DNA from: Candidatus Dadabacteria bacterium
Lineage (GTDB): Bacteria; Desulfobacterota_D; UBA1144; Nemesobacterales; Nemesobacteraceae
Direction of reading: 5' to 3'
NCBI GenBank assembly: GCA_026705445.1
Contig: JAPPAR010000038.1
Span: forward strand, 1-44,659
Length of the DNA: 44,659 bases
The notes under the pieces are model-generated. The model was not told where the DNA came from, did not search any database, and saw only the letters and a list, made by a program, of their open reading frames with translations. Positions 28,252 to 38,833 of this stretch are shown here, in pieces; the stretch's first letter is position 1, and each line of letters begins with the position of its first letter. Made by a program: the position numbers and the translations under genes.

Positions 28252-28675
28252 GTTGCCGGCGGCTGATACTAAGAATAATTTCCTGTTTAGGCTCGACGAT
28301 TTTCCGATTCTGGGGCAAACAATGCTAGAGGTAAAAGTGGTTCGGAAGTAGCTTTATATAACCGTTGGCAATTAGTTATTCTACTGAATGAATCTATCAG
28401 TAGATTCAGCGGTAAAATCCAGATATTGGCGCGGAGTTTTAGTTGGACTTTTTACATAACCAGAATCCAGCAACGTTATGCTTCCTATTTACAAAGACAA
28501 GGATTGCCTCGTATTCCTGAAAAGGCTACAGGCATTCCTGAAAATACTACGGATTAATAAAAACAATATCTTGCTAACCGCCTTTCTTGTTCTTGGTTAT
28601 CCGTAGTGTTATAGATAACTCCTATAGAGATGACAGATTAAATCCGGATTAGTGGTTGCCTGTGTTGAAGATCTT
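28252..28675. other. AT-rich gap with direct and inverted repeats before the R-M gene
   Basis: No firm gene. Contents are: a palindrome GAATCT-ATCAGT-AGATTC at 28390-28407; two tandem imperfect copies of a 21-bp unit at 28511-28531 and 28532-28552 (17 of 21 identical); and an inverted repeat CTACGGAT (28547-28554)/ATCCGTAG (28599-28606). A 42-codon open frame (28478-28606) runs through the tandem copies but has no ribosome-binding site and I do not call it a gene. Confidence 0.4.
28511..28552. repeat. Tandem 21-bp imperfect direct repeat
   Basis: Two adjacent 21-bp units, each containing ATTCCTGAAAA followed by a variable triplet and CTAC, with four mismatches between the copies. They lie about 124 bp upstream of the restriction-modification start and could be regulator-binding sites. 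If translated they would encode the repeated pattern FLKRLQ/FLKILR. Confidence 0.5.
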
Positions 28676-31528
28676 ATGACACCTGAAAAATTTATCGATA
28701 AATGGACCCGTTCAAAACTCAAAGAGACCTCTGCGTCACAAGAACAGTTTATCGACCTTTGCAATTTACTAGGTGAACCAACACCAGCGGAAGCTGACTC
28801 CGAGGGTGAGTATTACTGTTTTGAACGTGGTGTACGCAAAGAGGGAGGTGGTGATGGTTGGGCCGATGTTTGGAAACGCCACCATTTCGCTTGGGAGTAC
28901 AAGGGAAAACACAAGAATCTTGATAAAGCTTTAGCCCAGTTACGACAATATATTTCGGCATTGGAAAACCCCCCTCTTTTAATTGTTTCCGATATGGAGA
29001 GGTTTCGCATTCACACTAACTGGACTAACAGTGTGAGTGAAACTTACGAGTTTCAACTTGAAGACTTTTCTGATTCGGCCACGCGCGAAAAGTTTAAATG
29101 GGCATTCTCCGACCCTAGTCGACTTAGACCGGGTGAAACCCGGCAAGCACTCACTAGGCAAGCTGCCGAGACTTTTGCTTCTCTCGCTCAAGCACTGCGG
29201 GAACAGGGTTATAACCCGCAAACGGTAGCCCGTTTTATGAACCGCCTGATTTTCTGCATGTTCGCTGAAGATATAGGGCTTCTGCCTGATGATATGTTCT
29301 CAAATATGCTGAAAAGTGTACGGAACCAGCCTGAAGAGTTTGTTGAATGGGTAGGTGACTTGTTTAAGGCTATGGAATCGGGAGGACGGGTTGGATTTGA
29401 GCAGGTGAGTTGGTTTAACGGTGGCTTATTCAATGATGATACCGCTTTGCCAATGACCCGATTGGATATTGAGAAAGTCCTTAAAGCGGCAATGCTAGAC
29501 TGGTCAGAAATTGATCCTTCTATTTTTGGTACTTTGTTTGAACGCGGTCTTGACCCTAGTAAACGCTCCCAGCTGGGCGCACACTATACTGACCCCGGTA
29601 AGATCATGCGGATTATAAATCCAGTGATATACCATCCTTGGATTGATGAGTGGGAGGCAACAAAGGTAGAGATAAGAAACTGTCTAGAAAAGGCCGGAAA
29701 GACAGACAAGAAGTCGGCAAAAAGTCGGCATGAAAGGCAAGCCAAACGGTTGCTCAACCAGTTCCTTAAACGATTGCGTGAATTTACAGTGCTTGATCCA
29801 GCATGTGGATCAGGCAATTTTCTTTATCTTGCCCTCCATGTACTCAAGGATTTTGAACATCAGGTGCAAATTGAGGCAGAGGGAATGGGTTTTCCAAGAA
29901 CATTCCCTGCGGTGGGTCCAGGCAATGTTAAGGGAATTGAGATTAACTCCTATGCTGCTGAGCTGGCCAGACTCTCTATTTGGATAGGAAATATTCAATG
30001 GATGAGACGTAATGGATTTCAAACGGGGGCAGATGGAGATCAAAAGCCGATTCTTGAACCTCTTGAAACCATAGAATGTCGTGACGCAATACTAACTCCA
30101 GATAATAAGGGACCAGAATGGCCAAAAGCCGATGTAGTAATTGGAAATCCGCCATTTTTGGGTAACAGGAAAATACGAAGTGAGTTGGGGCACAATTACG
30201 CCGAAGCACTACCACGTGCCTATGCTGAGTTAGTGCATGGCAAAAAGCCCGACTTGGTCTGTTATTGGTTCGCCAAAGCCGGTCAACTTCTCGCAAATCG
30301 AGATATTCGATCCTTTGGTCTGGTGGCAACGAATTCGATCCGTGGGGGCACTAATCGCACAGTGTTGGACGGTATTCTTGAAGACTCGATAATTTTCGAT
30401 GCCTGGTCGGATGAACCTTGGGTAGTTGAAGGAGCTAACGTAAGGGTGTCATTGATCTGCTGTGCGCCTAAAGACTCCGGGTTTCCCATATCTTTAAATG
30501 CCGTTAGGGAACCAAATATCAACTCCGATCTCACAGCGGGAACTCTTGATCTTACTCGCGCATCTCCATTAAAACAAAACAGGAAAATAGCTTTCCAAGG
30601 GGATATCAAACGTGGCCCGTTCGACATTTCCGGCGACATTGCCCGGGAGTGGCTTCGCCTGCCCGCAAATCCCAATGGTCGCCCAAATGCCGATGTTCTC
30701 AGGCCGTGGATGAATGGAATGGATATAACCCGTCGTTCAAAAGACAAATGGATCGTCGATTTTGGCGATATGATGAGCGAGACTGAAGCCGCGTTTTACG
30801 AAGCCCCGTTTAGCTATATTGCTGAGCATGTGAAACCTATTCGCCAGGAAAACCGGGAGGAAGCAAGCCAGAAGTTCTGGTTTAGACACTGGAATACTCG
30901 CCCTGCGATGTGGCGGGCAGTGAATGGCATGGCACGCTATATCGCAACTCCGACAGTTGCCAAACACCGCCTCTTTGTCTGGCTGGATGCGCGTATCTGC
31001 CCAGATCATCAACTCATTATTATAGCCCGTGATGACAACACAACGTTAGGAATTCTCCACAGCCGCTTTCATGAGGTGTGGTCGCTCCGGCTTGGCACGA
31101 GCCTAGAAGACCGGCCGCGTTACACGCCAACCACGACCTTCGAGACCTTCCCCTTTCCGGACGGTCTTACTCCCGACACCTCTGCCGCTGGCTACGCTGA
31201 CGACCCGCGTGCCGTTGCCATCGCCGAAGCTGCATGTCGTTTGTTCGAACTGCGTGATCGGTGGCTCAACCCGCCGGAATGGGTGGAATGGGTGGATGAA
31301 CCTGTACCCGGTTATCCCAAGCGACCAATTCCCCGAAATGAATCTGTGGAGAAGGAACTCAAGAAGCGGACACTTACAAATCTTTATAACTCTTCTCCTC
31401 AATGGCTTATCAATGCACATGCGGATATTGACGCCGCTGTTGCCGATGCTTACGGTTGGCCTAATGACATCTCCGATGAAGAAGTATTGGGCAAGTTGTT
31501 AAGATTAAATCTACTAAGGAGTTCTTAG
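28676..31528 (+). CDS. MmeI-like type IIL restriction-modification enzyme
   Basis: A 950-residue single-chain restriction endonuclease and adenine methyltransferase. The nuclease site near the N-terminus is D64-x9-E74-x-K76 (ADVWKRHHFAWEYK), exactly the spacing known from MmeI (D70-x9-ExK82). A helical spacer (150-300) leads to the methyltransferase with motif I LDPACGSGNF (371-380) and motif IV NPPF (489-492). The target-recognition part is at about 640-850 and a helical C-terminal region follows. ATG at 28676 (MTPEKFIDKW) is the expected family start; the GTG at 28652 adds residues without a ribosome-binding site. Arg CGT/CGC and AT-rich flanks indicate transfer. Such enzymes cut on one side of a site methylated on one strand; the site cannot be told by eye. 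Confidence 0.9.
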   Translation: MTPEKFIDKWTRSKLKETSASQEQFIDLCNLLGEPTPAEADSEGEYYCFERGVRKEGGGDGWADVWKRHHFAWEYKGKHKNLDKALAQLRQYISALENPPLLIVSDMERFRIHTNWTNSVSETYEFQLEDFSDSATREKFKWAFSDPSRLRPGETRQALTRQAAETFASLAQALREQGYNPQTVARFMNRLIFCMFAEDIGLLPDDMFSNMLKSVRNQPEEFVEWVGDLFKAMESGGRVGFEQVSWFNGGLFNDDTALPMTRLDIEKVLKAAMLDWSEIDPSIFGTLFERGLDPSKRSQLGAHYTDPGKIMRIINPVIYHPWIDEWEATKVEIRNCLEKAGKTDKKSAKSRHERQAKRLLNQFLKRLREFTVLDPACGSGNFLYLALHVLKDFEHQVQIEAEGMGFPRTFPAVGPGNVKGIEINSYAAELARLSIWIGNIQWMRRNGFQTGADGDQKPILEPLETIECRDAILTPDNKGPEWPKADVVIGNPPFLGNRKIRSELGHNYAEALPRAYAELVHGKKPDLVCYWFAKAGQLLANRDIRSFGLVATNSIRGGTNRTVLDGILEDSIIFDAWSDEPWVVEGANVRVSLICCAPKDSGFPISLNAVREPNINSDLTAGTLDLTRASPLKQNRKIAFQGDIKRGPFDISGDIAREWLRLPANPNGRPNADVLRPWMNGMDITRRSKDKWIVDFGDMMSETEAAFYEAPFSYIAEHVKPIRQENREEASQKFWFRHWNTRPAMWRAVNGMARYIATPTVAKHRLFVWLDARICPDHQLIIIARDDNTTLGILHSRFHEVWSLRLGTSLEDRPRYTPTTTFETFPFPDGLTPDTSAAGYADDPRAVAIAEAACRLFELRDRWLNPPEWVEWVDEPVPGYPKRPIPRNESVEKELKKRTLTNLYNSSPQWLINAHADIDAAVADAYGWPNDISDEEVLGKLLRLNLLRSS

Positions 31529-33367: not shown

Positions 33368-34546
33368 ATGAAAAATGTACCGGGATTTCTGCTAAGCGGC
33401 GTATCCGCCGGGCTTAAGAGAGAGGGAAAGAGGGACCTGGCGCTCATATTCTCAACGGTTCCGGCCCACGCGTCCGCCATATTCACGAAAAACCTGATAA
33501 AAGGCGCCCCTGTGCTTGTTGGGCAGGAGAGAATCGCGGGCGGGCTCTGCCAGGCGATAATAATAAACAGCGTAAATGCTAACGCCTTCACGGGCCAAAA
33601 GGGCTATGAAGACTCGCTTGAAGTTGCAAACACGCTCTCCAGGCGGCTCGGAATAGATGAATCGCTCGTGATCCCTTCGTCAACCGGGGTTACGGGGGAG
33701 TGGCTTCGCGTCGGGAAAATCAAAAAGTCCATTCCCAGGCTCATAAAAGGTCTTGGAGAAGACAATGTCCGCGAGGCGGCAGAAGCCATCATGACGACCG
33801 ACTCCTTTCCCAAGTACGCATCAAGGCAGCTTGCCGTGGGAGAAAAGACAGCCACCGTCTCGGCTATCGGCAAGGGGGCGGGGATGATATGTCCTGACAT
33901 GGCGACCATGCTCTGTTTTATAATGACCGACCTTGATATTCAGCGGAAGGCTCTTTCAAAAGCTCTTGTGGCAGCGGCAAGCGGTTCTTTTAACGCCATA
34001 ACGGTTGACGGGGACACTTCCCCTAACGACTCCGTCTTTATCCTCGCAAACGGGGTTCTGGGAAACAGGCAGATCACGGAGAAAAGCAGGGATTACAGCA
34101 GGTTTGTAGACGCACTTTCGTCTTTATGCGGAGAGATCGCCGAGATGATAGTAAGTGACGGCGAAGGGGCTACGAAGGTCGTCAGGATCAATGTTACTGA
34201 AGCCAGGACAGAGAGGGATGCCGAGAAGATCGCGAGGACGATAGCCAGTTCCCAGCTTGTTAAAACCGCGTTTTACGGGGAGGATGCGAACTGGGGAAGG
34301 ATAGTGGCGGCTGCCGGAAGGGCCGGCGTGAAATTCGATCCGGAAAAAATAAAGCTTTATTTTGAAGGAATAGAGGTATTTTCAAAAGGGGTGAGATCCA
34401 AACCGGAATCAAGGTTTGCCCGAGTGTTCAAAAAACCGTCCTTTACGGTGACGCTTAGCCTCGGGGAGGGGAAGACGGCCTACTCGATTCTCACAAGCGA
34501 TCTAGGCCACAAGTACGTTTCGATCAATGCCGATTACAGGACCTGA
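33368..34546 (+). CDS. argJ: Bifunctional ornithine acetyltransferase / N-acetylglutamate synthase ArgJ
   Basis: A 392-residue self-processing enzyme of the cyclic arginine pathway, transferring acetyl from N-acetylornithine to glutamate. GFLLSGVSAGLK at the start, INSVNANAFTG, and the processing site KGAGMICPDMATML are present; Thr180 would be the nucleophile and new N-terminus of the beta chain. VDGDTSPNDS, KTAFYGEDANWGRI and the C-terminal LGHKYVSINADYR complete the family pattern. Whether it also makes N-acetylglutamate from acetyl-CoA cannot be read from sequence. It is convergent with recO; a perfect hairpin lies between them. Confidence 0.96.
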   Translation: MKNVPGFLLSGVSAGLKREGKRDLALIFSTVPAHASAIFTKNLIKGAPVLVGQERIAGGLCQAIIINSVNANAFTGQKGYEDSLEVANTLSRRLGIDESLVIPSSTGVTGEWLRVGKIKKSIPRLIKGLGEDNVREAAEAIMTTDSFPKYASRQLAVGEKTATVSAIGKGAGMICPDMATMLCFIMTDLDIQRKALSKALVAAASGSFNAITVDGDTSPNDSVFILANGVLGNRQITEKSRDYSRFVDALSSLCGEIAEMIVSDGEGATKVVRINVTEARTERDAEKIARTIASSQLVKTAFYGEDANWGRIVAAAGRAGVKFDPEKIKLYFEGIEVFSKGVRSKPESRFARVFKKPSFTVTLSLGEGKTAYSILTSDLGHKYVSINADYRT

Positions 34547-34554
34547 CCCGGGCG

Positions 34555-34569
34555 GTCTCCGTCGGAGAC
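34555..34569. terminator. Hairpin between convergent argJ and recO
   Basis: GTCTCC-GTC-GGAGAC is a perfect 6-bp stem with a 3-nt loop, centred in the 41-bp space between the two stop codons. Neither side has a good U tract, so efficiency as a terminator is uncertain. Confidence 0.4.
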
Positions 34570-34587
34570 TCTACGCTTCCTTCATGC

Positions 34588-35274
34588 TCAGGTTTCGTCA
34601 GCAAACCCGGTTTTCTCAAGACGCCTTCCGGTACTGTATTCGGTGTATCTCATTAGAATCCGTATGTTGTTTTTTACTTTTTCGAGGTTTGTGTCCATGA
34701 TTTCAGGATGTCTCATTATGTCCATGTGGAAGGGATAGGTGTTCCTTTTCCCCTGTGTTTTCTCAAGACTGCTGAGCTTTCCGTTCTCTACGTCAAACCC
34801 CGCGACCTCTTTTTCCCTCTCAAAGCGCAAATCGGGTCTGTAGCCGCAAAGGGTAAGCGCGCGGAGGAGAAAAACGAGAAAAACGGAGTGCGGTTCCCGT
34901 TTTCCCGAGAGAAGCCCTAGGGTGTCTGTCGCAAGGTCGAACAGCTTGTCTGCGGGTTCCTGTTCGGGGGTTAGGAAATCGAGCAGCTCCAAAACGCGGT
35001 TTGCCGCGACGAAGGAGTCAACCGATTCCGTTATTTCCCTGTAGCTTTCCTTCAAGGTCACGTCCCCGATGAGGTTGAACTTTCCTTTGTTAAGGGTTAC
35101 TTCGATTGCCAGGCGGTTAAAGAAATCGAGACGTCCACCGAAGCGCTTTCGGCTTTTTTTCGCGTTTTTGGCAAGCGCCCTGAATTTTCCGAGTTCCATT
35201 GAGAAAAGGGTTACAATTAGATCGGCTTCCCCGTAGTTTGATTTTCTTAAAACAAGCGCTTCACATGTTTCCAT
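34588..35274 (-). CDS. recO: DNA repair protein RecO
   Basis: A 228-residue recombination mediator that works with RecR and, at gaps, RecF to load RecA. The N-terminal OB-fold shows ETCEALVLRKSNYGEADLIV, FSMELGKFRALAKNAKKS and RFGGRLDFFNRLAIEV, followed by the helical domain with LELLDFLTPEQEPADKLFDL and LRALTLCGYRPDL. The zinc-finger cysteines seen in some RecO proteins are absent from the C-terminal half. Together with recF at 14846-15937, the window carries two members of this pathway. Confidence 0.93.
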   Translation of the reverse strand: METCEALVLRKSNYGEADLIVTLFSMELGKFRALAKNAKKSRKRFGGRLDFFNRLAIEVTLNKGKFNLIGDVTLKESYREITESVDSFVAANRVLELLDFLTPEQEPADKLFDLATDTLGLLSGKREPHSVFLVFLLRALTLCGYRPDLRFEREKEVAGFDVENGKLSSLEKTQGKRNTYPFHMDIMRHPEIMDTNLEKVKNNIRILMRYTEYSTGRRLEKTGFADET

Positions 35275-35355
35275 GGTTTGTTTTCAGGCTCAAAACATTG
35301 ATTTGGGAATTAGATACAATCCCCAGTTTTTAGGGGACTATATGCTTTAGATATT

Positions 35356-35913
35356 TTATGTGCTTTCTGGGTAGTTTTTGGTTAAACGTTTTAACTCTGA
35401 AAGAGGCAGAACATGAACATCTGACACGAGGTTTTCCAAGGGCTGTTTCAATCGTCCCCTTATCCGCGATAACACGCGAGAGTCCTTCCTCTTAACATCA
35501 TTGCATACAACACAGAACTCAACTGTCTTACCCCTTATCAATCTTCTAGTAGTTCTGTCCAAAGAGCAGATTCTACACAAAAGCAGCAAACTTGCGTAAG
35601 CTTTTAAGAGTTGTTCTTTGCCGATGATTCTTACAGATATTTTTTTGGAATACTTTTTCTCCAGTTCCTTTTTTTTCTTTCTGAGGTTCGAGTCCTCCAG
35701 CAGTAAAACATTGCCGTCGTTGATAAGTATATAGTCGCAAGCATGAGCATTGTGCATTCCATATTGACCCTTGAGCGTCTTTCCATTTCCAGGAATAGCT
35801 TTGTCTACAGCATAGGCTTTCGTGGGGAAATTACACGTTTTTTTCTCCTCCTTTACGAGTTTTTTGATTTCCAACGGCCTTGTAAAATCTTCAAACGACA
35901 TCTTCAAGGTCAT
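35356..35913 (-). CDS. Unknown protein with two CxxC motifs, partner of AAA ATPase
   Basis: A 185-residue basic protein. Two CxxC pairs, C113-RI-C116 and C134-VV-C137, suggest a zinc-binding knuckle. Upstream of them is ACDYILINDGNVLLLEDSN (Asp60, Glu73-Asp74), which has the D...(E/D)x spacing of PD-(D/E)xK-type nuclease cores, though the expected Lys is replaced by Ser75. A nuclease fold is therefore possible but not shown. I recognise no named family. The ATG overlaps the stop of the ATPase gene by ATGA, so the two proteins are made together and probably act together, in the manner of two-component anti-phage systems. Confidence 0.6.
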   Translation of the reverse strand: MTLKMSFEDFTRPLEIKKLVKEEKKTCNFPTKAYAVDKAIPGNGKTLKGQYGMHNAHACDYILINDGNVLLLEDSNLRKKKKELEKKYSKKISVRIIGKEQLLKAYASLLLLCRICSLDRTTRRLIRGKTVEFCVVCNDVKRKDSRVLSRIRGRLKQPLENLVSDVHVLPLSELKRLTKNYPEST

Positions 35914-37313
35914 AACCCGCCAAAGAAAAGAGTGGTGAACGGCTCGGTCAAATTTTCCTGTATTGCCTCAAGTTTGCTGTCAAAATCTTCTTCGTAACCT
36001 TCGATGCCCTCAGATGAAAAGCGGTTAAGAGCTATAATATCCCTGCTTTTAGGATCTTTTCTCACTTCCTCTTCGAGAAATTGGAGGATATCTACAGAAT
36101 GGGTAGCGATTACAACATTTATGCCCAAACGAGACAATTCAAAGAGCGTCTTGGCGACTTTAACCTGCCAAGAAGGGTGAAGGTGTGCCTCTGGTTCGTC
36201 GATGAAGAGAAAAGCACCCTCGTTTATGATTCTACGCTCGATGAGTAGAGCAATGATACCAAGGTTGACAACGCCCATTGCGACAAGATGCAAAGTAAGG
36301 GAAGTGTTGTGTTTGTTGTCTTCAAATCGTAACTCTCCAGTTTCAGAAACCGTGAGTCTCCCATCCATAACATCGCTTGAGAGTAATCGCTCATGGAGCT
36401 TCATAATATCTTCGCGACCGTCCTCATCTGGATATTCCTCTCTCAGCGCCCTTGCCAGATCGTAGAAATAACCGGGCACCCCGCTTAGAGCGTCTCCTCC
36501 TACGCTATGAAAACGCGGTGTCATCCTGATCCCCTCCAGCGGAGATTTCAGTTTCCAGTAGAGGGGGGATTCCAGATATATCACTCTGGAATGCTCCTGA
36601 AGTCCGCGAAAACTTGCCTCATCCTTGATGCTGAAATCAACTGACTTGGTATTTTCAATCGTAAATTCACCGACATTGTCGAGCACGATTCTAGCCGGTT
36701 GGGTTGGGTCTTTTCTTAGATTTGAAAGGTTGACTGTCTGGAAATTTCGAACAAGGTTTTGAGCGACCCTTTTCTTTATGCCGTCCATGGTAAATTCTCT
36801 AGCGGTGGTTTTAAGTGCACCATAAAGGTTGTTTATATTTTCTCCCATTCTTTCCAAAGGTTTCTTATATATCCTCTGAGCCACAAAAGTGCCTTCTTCT
36901 CTCGCCCATTTATCAAGGCTTCTCTCAAGCTGTATATGCTCCGCTCTTAATTGCTTTCCATAATCGACAACAATACCCCAAGCTTTTTCTCGCTGATGTG
37001 AGTATTCGGGGTCGAAAAGACTTCCCATTATAGTCAGGATGGATTCCATCTTGGCAAGAGATACTTCGTTTTCTTTTTTCTCGGCAAAGTTAGTACCGCT
37101 CAGCGCTTCAAGACTGCCACGTACGGGCCGGGACAGCATATTGAAGTACATTAAGGCGTGGTCGGCATTCATCACGTCGAAGAGGGAATATAAGAGTTTT
37201 GAAACAAAACTCTTCCCCGTATTGTTAGGTCCTGCAAATACAGTAAATTGTCCAATGCGTAAGTCTGCATTAGTTAATTTTCCGAAGTTTTTTATATTAA
37301 GTTTGAATGACAT
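35910..37313 (-). CDS. AAA/ABC-type ATPase of a candidate two-gene defence cassette
   Basis: A 467-residue soluble ATPase of the OLD/AAA_15 type. Walker A is GPNNTGKS (28-35), close to the N-terminus. A long helical or coiled insert (80-200) follows. The second half holds LHLVAMGVVNLG in the signature position, Walker B AFLFIDEPEAHLHP (Asp372, Glu373) and the switch His in VVIATHSVDIL. This split-head layout is that of SMC-like ATPases in anti-phage systems such as Septu, Gabija-type OLD proteins or AriA. The partner is none of the usual ones. It is AT-richer than its core neighbours and stands between recO and the menaquinone operon. Confidence 0.8.
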   Translation of the reverse strand: MSFKLNIKNFGKLTNADLRIGQFTVFAGPNNTGKSFVSKLLYSLFDVMNADHALMYFNMLSRPVRGSLEALSGTNFAEKKENEVSLAKMESILTIMGSLFDPEYSHQREKAWGIVVDYGKQLRAEHIQLERSLDKWAREEGTFVAQRIYKKPLERMGENINNLYGALKTTAREFTMDGIKKRVAQNLVRNFQTVNLSNLRKDPTQPARIVLDNVGEFTIENTKSVDFSIKDEASFRGLQEHSRVIYLESPLYWKLKSPLEGIRMTPRFHSVGGDALSGVPGYFYDLARALREEYPDEDGREDIMKLHERLLSSDVMDGRLTVSETGELRFEDNKHNTSLTLHLVAMGVVNLGIIALLIERRIINEGAFLFIDEPEAHLHPSWQVKVAKTLFELSRLGINVVIATHSVDILQFLEEEVRKDPKSRDIIALNRFSSEGIEGYEEDFDSKLEAIQENLTEPFTTLFFGGL

Positions 37314-37960
37314 TCTTTACCCACTTTGCCTAATTTTAACCGTTCGGGAGAATTGGACAACAAGCTAACTATTCCTCCTAAGACAGGCAAGAATTTTTTA
37401 GCAAGTAAAAAACGCAATAAGTAGTTATGGGCTTAAAAAGCTAGGGAGAAGAAAAGCACGGTGGTTTAATCCGCTTCTTTAATGCTTCGAGTTCTGCCCA
37501 TATAGCGGGAGCCATTATGAGAGTAAACTACCTCTTGCGACAAGACTGCTTCTCTGAGAAGTTGCAAAACCTCTTTATCCTTTGAACCATCTCCATAAAC
37601 TGTTATCTCTACATCGATGTGGCCTATCTCTTGTTGGGGGCAATGTCCTTCAGGGACTAGATCATGTCTTGCTTCTAGGCCTCTGATTATTCCCCATCTA
37701 AAGCCTGAATCGCTTTCAGTCTTTTCAGGAACTTATTGTATTGTGATGCTTCTTGGCATTCAACTACCCTTTTGTTTTGTTTGCTGGGAATTGCAAGCTA
37801 ATCGACGCGCAAATCTAGGATTTTGTGTAATAAAGTATATAAGCCCCATTGAAATTTCCCGCGTGTTTGAGAAGATTACTGTTATTTTAGATGACAGGCA
37901 AAGCAAGCTGCGGACACGTTCTCTGCGGGCGACTATCCGCCCAAAAGACCGTTCGCGCAG
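37314..37960. other. AT-rich spacer upstream of the ATPase cassette and of mqnP
   Basis: Holds the interrupted small gene at 37466-37759. A possible minus-strand -10, TATACT, lies at 37834-37839. A GGGCG/CGCCC hairpin lies at 37927-37942 just before mqnP. Nothing else is convincing. Confidence 0.4.
37466..37759 (-). pseudogene. Small gene interrupted by an early stop codon
   Basis: On the minus strand, an ATG at 37759 with AAAAGGG upstream reads MPRSITIQ, then TAA, and then continues in the same frame for 88 further sense codons to a TAA at 37466. The continuing part includes SGFRWGIIRGLEARHDLVP, EIGHIDVEITVYGDGSKD and YSHNGSRYMGRTRSI, with no other start codon near its beginning. It has good protein-like composition, so this looks like a real 97-residue protein broken by one nonsense change. 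It lies 152 bp upstream of the AAA ATPase on the same strand and may have been its operon's first gene. I do not recognise the family. Confidence 0.5.
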
Positions 37961-38833
37961 ATGAAACATCCGGTAGAATTCCGTATCCAAATGACGTTTT
38001 TAAAGAATCTCTCGGGATTTCTTAGAATAGAGCACACGTTTTTTTCCCTTCCGGTTATCTTCGCGGGCGCTTTTCTGGCCGTCGGCGGGATATTCAGTGC
38101 CCGGCTTTTCGTGCTGATTGTCCTTGCGGGGACGGGGGCGCGGACCGCCGCTCTGGCTCTTAACAGGATTTTTGACCGGGAAATAGACCGGGAGAACCCG
38201 AGAACCACGCGGAGAGAGCTTCCTTCGGGCAAAATGAGCATGGGCGAGGCTGTGGCCGTGGCGGCTGCGGGAGCCCTGCTTTACTTTGTCTCTGCCTATC
38301 TTATATGTCCGCTTGTCTTCCTTCTCTCCCCGATTCCGCTTGTTGCGTTTACCGTCTATCCGCTGATGAAGAGATTTACTAGCCTCTGTCATTTCGGCGT
38401 GGGACTCTCCCTTGCGCTCGGTCCGCTTGGCGGGTGGCTTGCAGTGAGGTGCTCTTTTGAGGAGATTCTTCCGGCAGTCGTGCTCTCGGTTTTCACTTTT
38501 CTATGGATTTCGGGGTTTGACATCATATACGCCACAGCCGACGAGGAGTTTGACCGCCGCCGCGGCGTTTTTTCCCTTGTCGCCCGTTTCGGGAAACAGA
38601 AGGCGCTTTCTGTTTCCAGGATCTGCCATCTGCTTTCGTTCGTTTCGCTTGTTTTTCTTTACCTTCTTTCGTTTCGCAGTTTCCTGGCGCTTTTGCCGCT
38701 TTTGCTCTGCGGCTACCTCCTTTACCTTGAGCACAGGAGCTTTGGACAGGTGGATTCCGCTTTTTTCAGAACCAACATCCTGATAGGTTTTGCAGTTTTG
38801 TTTTTCACCCTCGCGGGTATATACTTACCCTGA
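37961..38833 (+). CDS. mqnP: UbiA-family prenyltransferase (MqnP) of the futalosine pathway
   Basis: A 290-residue polytopic membrane protein that attaches the polyprenyl chain to the naphthoate ring. The two aspartate-rich motifs of UbiA enzymes are present: NRIFDREIDRENPRT in the loop after helix 2 and DIIYATADEEFDRRRG in the second half. EHTFFSLPVIFAGAFLA is the usual first helix. It could be taken for UbiA of ubiquinone synthesis, but it is followed directly by UbiX- and UbiD-type genes and MqnE, so the menaquinone futalosine branch (MqnP) is the better reading. The start may be the ATG at 37961 or at 37991; neither has a clear ribosome-binding site. Confidence 0.9.
   Translation: MKHPVEFRIQMTFLKNLSGFLRIEHTFFSLPVIFAGAFLAVGGIFSARLFVLIVLAGTGARTAALALNRIFDREIDRENPRTTRRELPSGKMSMGEAVAVAAAGALLYFVSAYLICPLVFLLSPIPLVAFTVYPLMKRFTSLCHFGVGLSLALGPLGGWLAVRCSFEEILPAVVLSVFTFLWISGFDIIYATADEEFDRRRGVFSLVARFGKQKALSVSRICHLLSFVSLVFLYLLSFRSFLALLPLLLCGYLLYLEHRSFGQVDSAFFRTNILIGFAVLFFTLAGIYLP

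Follow-up and report, generated by a model that had tools for sequence, protein, structure and literature searches.

The window, a stretch of 44,659 nucleotides that is an entire contig of a 1.78-Mb Candidatus Dadabacteria assembly, carries two overlapping genes on its minus strand, inserted in the gap between recO and mqnP. The upstream gene encodes a 467-aa ATPase and the downstream gene a 185-aa partner (P0002). The two genes are joined by an ATGA overlap; this arrangement had been described in the original prediction, and its coordinates hold upon checking. The features of the locus are as follows.

35305-37846: inserted cassette, 2,542 bp, in the recO-mqnP gap, delimited by blastn of window positions 34501-38100 against congeners
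35910-37313 (-): OLD-type ABC ATPase, 467 aa; Walker A GPNNTGKS (residues 28-35), Walker B FLFIDEP (E373), switch His405
35356-35913 (-): partner (P0002), 185 aa, putative divergent PD-(D/E)xK fold and predicted effector; D60, E73, S75 (in place of Lys), K104
37825-37846 (-): right terminal inverted repeat, GGGCTTATATACTTTATTACAC, ending exactly on the insertion boundary
35333-35348 (+): GGGGACTATATGCTTT, a tentative left inverted repeat, degenerate and lying 28 bp within the left boundary

A third gene had also been considered possible, but the 534 bp of the insert that lie 5' of the ATPase contain no conserved frame, and we therefore reject it. The sole open frame in this interval, 88 codons at 37466-37732 (-) lacking an ATG, gave zero matches in a Pfam search and has no counterpart in the related cassettes of two other genomes (G025 and G020, see below); it may represent the tail of a gene inserted earlier. 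Between the window genome (G000) and G025, dN/dS is 0.21 for the partner and 0.25 for the ATPase, indicating purifying selection on both.

The pair occupies a variable gap between core genes

recO and mqnP are divergent neighbours, lying roughly 170 bp apart in most congeners. In eight congeners the recO-mqnP site is contiguous and empty, and the blastn query breaks against it at 35304/37847, which confirms the proposed insertion between two core genes. The insert is also AT-rich, as had been noted (42.3% G+C, versus 51.4% in the rest of the window). Three other genomes carry different cargo in the same gap: a DUF7662/FitA-like RHH antitoxin and PIN toxin pair in G025 (L060), a membrane methyltransferase-like gene with a PIN remnant in G019 (L061, assigned by reading the translation alone), and an AAA_14/DUF4143 ATPase in G023 (L062). 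With its differing cargo, the gap is a recurrent insertion hotspot. The pair lies between two core genes and not in a classical defence island; an MmeI-type restriction gene is found about 4 kb away. That gene (28652-31528, +) encodes a 958-aa protein, an MmeI-type (type IIL) fusion of restriction and methylation functions, and is the contig's second defence gene; it sits in AT-richer DNA (~45-50% G+C) and is separated from the cassette by genes for a dihydroorotate dehydrogenase and an argJ-like protein.

Across 58 genomes of the phylum, the partner and a full-length ATPase were found in only three: G000, G025 and G020, the latter two belonging to the window's own genus. The G025 proteins are 73% (partner) and 71% (ATPase) identical to those of the window, and the G020 proteins 46% (44-46%) and 52%, respectively. 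Rare adjacency of the two genes had been set as the refuting observation; they are adjacent and on the same strand in all three genomes that hold either one. In G025, the pair lies beyond the mqn cluster, flanked by two genes that we take to encode nicotinamide-nucleotide adenylyltransferase-like and glutamine-amidotransferase-like proteins. In G020, an insert of 2.19 kb separates tRNA-Val/thrS from purC and contains the pair; the site is empty in the congeners covering both flanks. The presence of the intact pair at three different sites indicates that the two genes have travelled together. The G025 pair shares its gap with a region of small accessory ORFs that is present in other congeners (L002 8706-8906, L102, L104), so this gap may be a second insertion hotspot.

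Spread by viruses was considered and rejected: searches of phages (tblastn) and viral contigs (seven scans) found no relative of the pair; 11 viral loci were considered and rejected, as they encode SbcC-like phage proteins that have only the Walker A region in common with the ATPase. On plasmids, the partner was absent, and the ATPase was matched by three distant ATPases only.

An inverted repeat marks cassette ends in two genomes

Allowing up to two mismatches, the 22-mer GGGNTTRTATRCTTTRTTACAC occurs three times in 14 genomes, each time at a cassette end, while a reversed control pattern gave no occurrence. Two copies lie at opposite ends of the G025 pair, inverted relative to each other and identical at 20 of 22 positions; the third is the window repeat at 37825-37846, which ends with the final base of the insert, and this boundary had been derived independently, by way of the empty site. 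The G025 copy that lies upstream of the ATPase likewise falls on the empty-site junction, and next to the other copy come about 350 bp of further accessory DNA. The degenerate left repeat of the window (35333-35348) matches the G025 repeat at 14 of 16 positions, and its score was reached by 2 of 300 shuffled ends. No 22-bp repeat was found at the G020 cassette.

Because the repeat marks cassette ends in two genomes, it suggests that the cassette is mobile without a transposase of its own. In this it resembles mobile insertion cassettes, transposase-less elements with IS-like ends that are short, bounded by inverted repeats and carry only passenger genes, but it differs from them in that no target-site duplication was visible at the insertion and no parental insertion sequence was found. 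Alternatively, the 22-bp repeats could be shared regulatory repeats rather than transposon ends, with the cassette having been moved by recombination. This account, which concerns mobility only, is possible but in our view doubtful: it fits the lack of a transposase and of a target-site duplication, the degeneracy of the left repeat in the window and the missing repeat in G020, yet it does not predict that the G025 repeats would be inverted at both ends (20/22) with one of them on the empty-site junction, or that the window repeat would end on the junction base. From these sequence features, we regard the locus as a probable, though not proven, transposase-less mobile insertion cassette.

The ATPase belongs to a known class but to a separate lineage

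The 467-aa protein matches Pfam AAA_15 (1.2e-23) and AAA_21 (4e-18). Among PADLOC models, HEC-02A scores best (1.4e-26), with AriA and PD-T4-4_A also matching and several models about equal. Together with the Walker A and Walker B motifs and the switch His, these matches uphold the assignment as an OLD-like ATPase. PHROG family phrog_14430, which has no known function, matches over the full length of the protein (E 1e-71). Beyond switch His405, the protein continues as a C-terminal extension of about 60 aa and then ends; no domain match to TOPRIM was found, and Pfam detected no domain, effector or other, beyond the ATPase core. The ATPase probably forms a dimer whose ATP sites are composite. 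As originally predicted, the pair is distinct from several familiar systems: the lack of a C-terminal TOPRIM separates the ATPase from GajA of Gabija and from the OLD nucleases, and P0002 has no HNH or PtuB match, as in Septu, and no AriB/DUF4435 match, as in PARIS.

The architecture, in contrast, cannot be called undescribed, as first claimed. Under the names WonAB, PD-T4-4 and 'OLD-ABC ATPase + Novel REase', the combination of an OLD-ABC ATPase with a small PD-(D/E)xK-fold nuclease is already in the literature (PMC12137116), and PADLOC lists it as PDC-M47 and HEC-02. We assembled a gallery of PD-T4-4_A and HEC-02A matches from 387 diverse genomes, together with their downstream partners. A D..ExK partner of 134-247 aa follows 14 of 15 PD-T4-4_A matches, the 15th being at a contig edge, and a D..ExK partner in the same size range follows all 11 HEC-02A matches outside the window clade. 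The gallery motif consists of Asp, 12-20 residues and ExK, with small deviations in three partners (for example CDYLFLFEEEGEDYAVFVELK, VDFIVKEQDKVLFIEFK and VDFIGKKSPALWFIEVK), and PADLOC names the gallery partners tested PD-T4-4_B, PDC-M47B or HEC-02B. D..EFK partners likewise accompany two distant phrog_14430 matches in G145. In that genome, a gene for a 528-aa protein (L025 4690-6276) immediately follows an OLD-ABC ATPase and D..EFK pair and is possibly a third gene of that variant.

In a maximum-likelihood tree, the ATPases of G000, G025 and G020 form their own lineage (100/100 support, stem of 2.3 changes per site), placed outside the HEC-02A and PD-T4-4/M47 groups. HEC-02 provides the best PADLOC match to the ATPase, a partner similar in size and motif register, and the top-scoring partner profile (see below); however, HEC-02A proteins are ~340-350 aa long, compared with 467 aa here. 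PD-T4-4 and PDC-M47 share the ATPase length (~460 aa), the two-gene operon and a small CDY..ExK partner, the Cys-Asp-Tyr of which is also present in P0002, but the PD-T4-4_B and PDC-M47B models miss our partner. WonAB, compared here through its published description, is a two-gene operon in which an OLD-ABC ATPase with a C-terminal extension is followed by a partner of PD-(D/E)xK-variant type (PMC12137116); WonB needs a Lys71 whose equivalent is absent here. Since no model matches the partner at E<=1 and the ATPase falls outside each clade, the pair is not a strict member of HEC-02, PD-T4-4 or PDC-M47. The kind is known but the clade is new: its ATPases form a separate lineage and its partner lacks the signature Lys of the ExK motif.

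The partner resembles a PD-(D/E)xK nuclease

The partner had no match in Pfam above threshold, in NCBIfam, or among PADLOC models at E<=1. The profile phrog_34018 matched the window copy only (E 0.005); over the phylum it gave zero matches, as did its controls. Two properties originally ascribed to the partner fail to extend to its relatives. First, the family does not conserve the two CxxC pairs (C113/C116 and C134/C137): the 73%-identical relative has Ser in place of C116, and C113 is the only one of the four cysteines kept in the 44-46%-identical relative. We therefore rejected the idea of a zinc-binding CxxC or zinc-ribbon protein. Second, the protein is basic in the window copy (K+R/D+E 40/21) but not in the relatives (28/30 and 31/34). 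The predicted D..ED site without Lys, on the other hand, is real and invariant, with D60, E73, D74, S75 and N76 present in all three members.

The suggested likeness to PD-(D/E)xK nucleases lacking the Lys is supported as a reading by comparison with the gallery. Scored with an HMM of 11 HEC-02B-type partners, the window partner reached 20.6 bits (E 2.5e-8 for one comparison) in matching motif register, carrying CDYILINDGNVLLLEDSN where gallery partners have D..ExK, with Asp60, Glu73 and, at the Lys position, Ser75. Controls scored far lower (maximum of 8.4 bits in 2,000 shuffles, 4.2 for the reversed sequence and about 3 for the best unrelated ORF), and the two relatives scored just 6.4 and 3.6 bits. 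AlphaFold modelling from the three close sequences gave a pLDDT of 46, and a 16-row alignment with 13 gallery partners added gave a pLDDT of 88.9 and a pTM of 0.85. The order of strands and helices is identical in the two models and is that of the PD-(D/E)xK core. Profile-profile comparison of the three-sequence alignment with hhalign gave no significant score, and Foldseek returned no significant match with either the poor first or the good second model, although the PD-(D/E)xK entries FokI, XPF, MUS81 and Nt.BspD6I were within its top 50, below significance. By position, in our own reading of the alignments and not as the output of a tool, the invariant K104 of the partner appears to match a near-invariant helix Lys of HEC-02B (K81). 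Taken together, sequence and model support, but do not prove, that the partner belongs, as a divergent member, to the small PD-(D/E)xK-fold partners of this ATPase class.

A serine replaces the signature lysine

The partner does not have the full catalytic set of Asp, Glu and Lys: Asp60 and Glu73, the predicted metal ligands, are present, and Ser75 takes the place of Lys in each of the three members, which are 44-73% identical and share invariant D60, E73, D74 and N76. Gallery partners have Lys at this position in 26 of 27 cases and Arg in one. In WonB, the K71A mutant is inactive, and the corresponding kind of Lys is essential there for both protection and toxicity (PMC12137116). The shared substitution suggests a variant that works like these systems rather than a standard member. 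A literature search on PD-(D/E)xK enzymes lacking the Lys, and on HEC-02, yielded nothing usable.

The partner may cut nucleic acid by means of a substitute residue, with the invariant Lys81 and Lys104 as candidates, or it may have turned into an effector that binds or blocks. Retention of both acids (D60 and E73) argues for a modified active site, with K81 or K104 as substitutes. Alternatively, the partner could be a pseudo-nuclease: no longer catalytic, it would act by binding nucleic acids or nucleotides, as a sensor, an adaptor or a blocker, and the ATPase or another factor would be the active component. Ser at the Lys position in every member, set against the 26 of 27 gallery partners with Lys and the one with Arg, is what such a loss would look like, and inactive REase domains paired with NTPases have been proposed as sensors (PMC12839542). 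Yet D60 and E73 are invariant at ~44% identity, which would be unexpected if the fold alone mattered, and the ATPase has no other effector domain; we consider this loss of catalysis rather unlikely, though a serious contender. A more far-reaching reading, possible but less likely than not, is of a distinct clade of these defence systems whose PD-(D/E)xK effector acts without the canonical Lys, through a substitute residue or a non-cutting mechanism, within a terminal-repeat-bounded cassette of 2.2-2.5 kb that moves between core-gene gaps without its own transposase.

The pair is probably a defence system

Comparison with the described systems suggests, with fair confidence, that the pair is a stand-alone mobile abortive-infection cassette of the OLD-ABC-ATPase and PD-(D/E)xK-partner kind, like WonAB, PD-T4-4 and HEC-02; the original reading of the pair as defensive is thus probably right. 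Counting against this explanation are the non-significant hhalign and Foldseek comparisons of the partner, the low profile scores of its two relatives, the long stem of the ATPase clade, and Ser75 at a position where mutation of the Lys inactivates WonB. PD-T4-4 was found in a selection for phage protection in E. coli (PMC9519451), and WonAB aborts infection, WonB alone being toxic and blocking translation (PMC12137116). From these relatives we infer not only defence but also the sensing, complex formation, toxicity and target of the pair. After the model of WonAB (PMC12137116), the ATPase dimer would act as the infection sensor, keeping the partner encoded by the overlapping gene bound and silent on its C-terminal extensions. 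An infection signal would shift the ATP state of the ATPase, and the partner, freed or armed, would halt cell growth prior to capsid assembly.

The pair could instead be a self-stabilising addiction module of the toxin-antitoxin type, with defence a side effect at most. The cassette is a tiny autonomous insert, and a FitA-like/PIN toxin-antitoxin pair occupies the same recO-mqnP gap in G025, but related systems of the same architecture show anti-phage activity in tests and a toxin-antitoxin reading of WonAB has been argued against (PMC12137116), so we consider an addiction module improbable. A repair or housekeeping ATPase beside an unrelated small protein is very unlikely: OLD/SMC/RecF-like ATPases do work in DNA repair too, and Pfam alone cannot tell these roles apart, but only three of the phylum's 58 searched genomes carry the pair, each at an insertion site of its own.

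The locus would extend the group of OLD-ABC ATPases with nuclease partners to a phylum that is uncultured and associated with sponges; judging by its isolate name, the closest named relative presumably comes from a sponge. The clade also offers a natural test of whether the partner needs its nuclease chemistry, since three lineages have kept the Asp and Glu while fixing Ser at the position of a Lys of the kind on which WonB depends. More broadly, the locus suggests that minimal defence cassettes may travel as transposase-less inverted-repeat elements into recurrent core-gene gaps, outside classical defence islands.

Pairs with a Lys-containing partner motif are also present in Dadabacteria. 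In another family, canonical relatives of the system combine OLD-ABC ATPases with PDC-M47B-like partners of 154-160 aa in which ExK is intact (L080/L008 in G011 and L083 in G012). The window's own genus contains PD-T4-4-like pairs with the partner motif IIEQK (L073 in G020 and L076 in G023), the ATPase of L076 being split in two frames.
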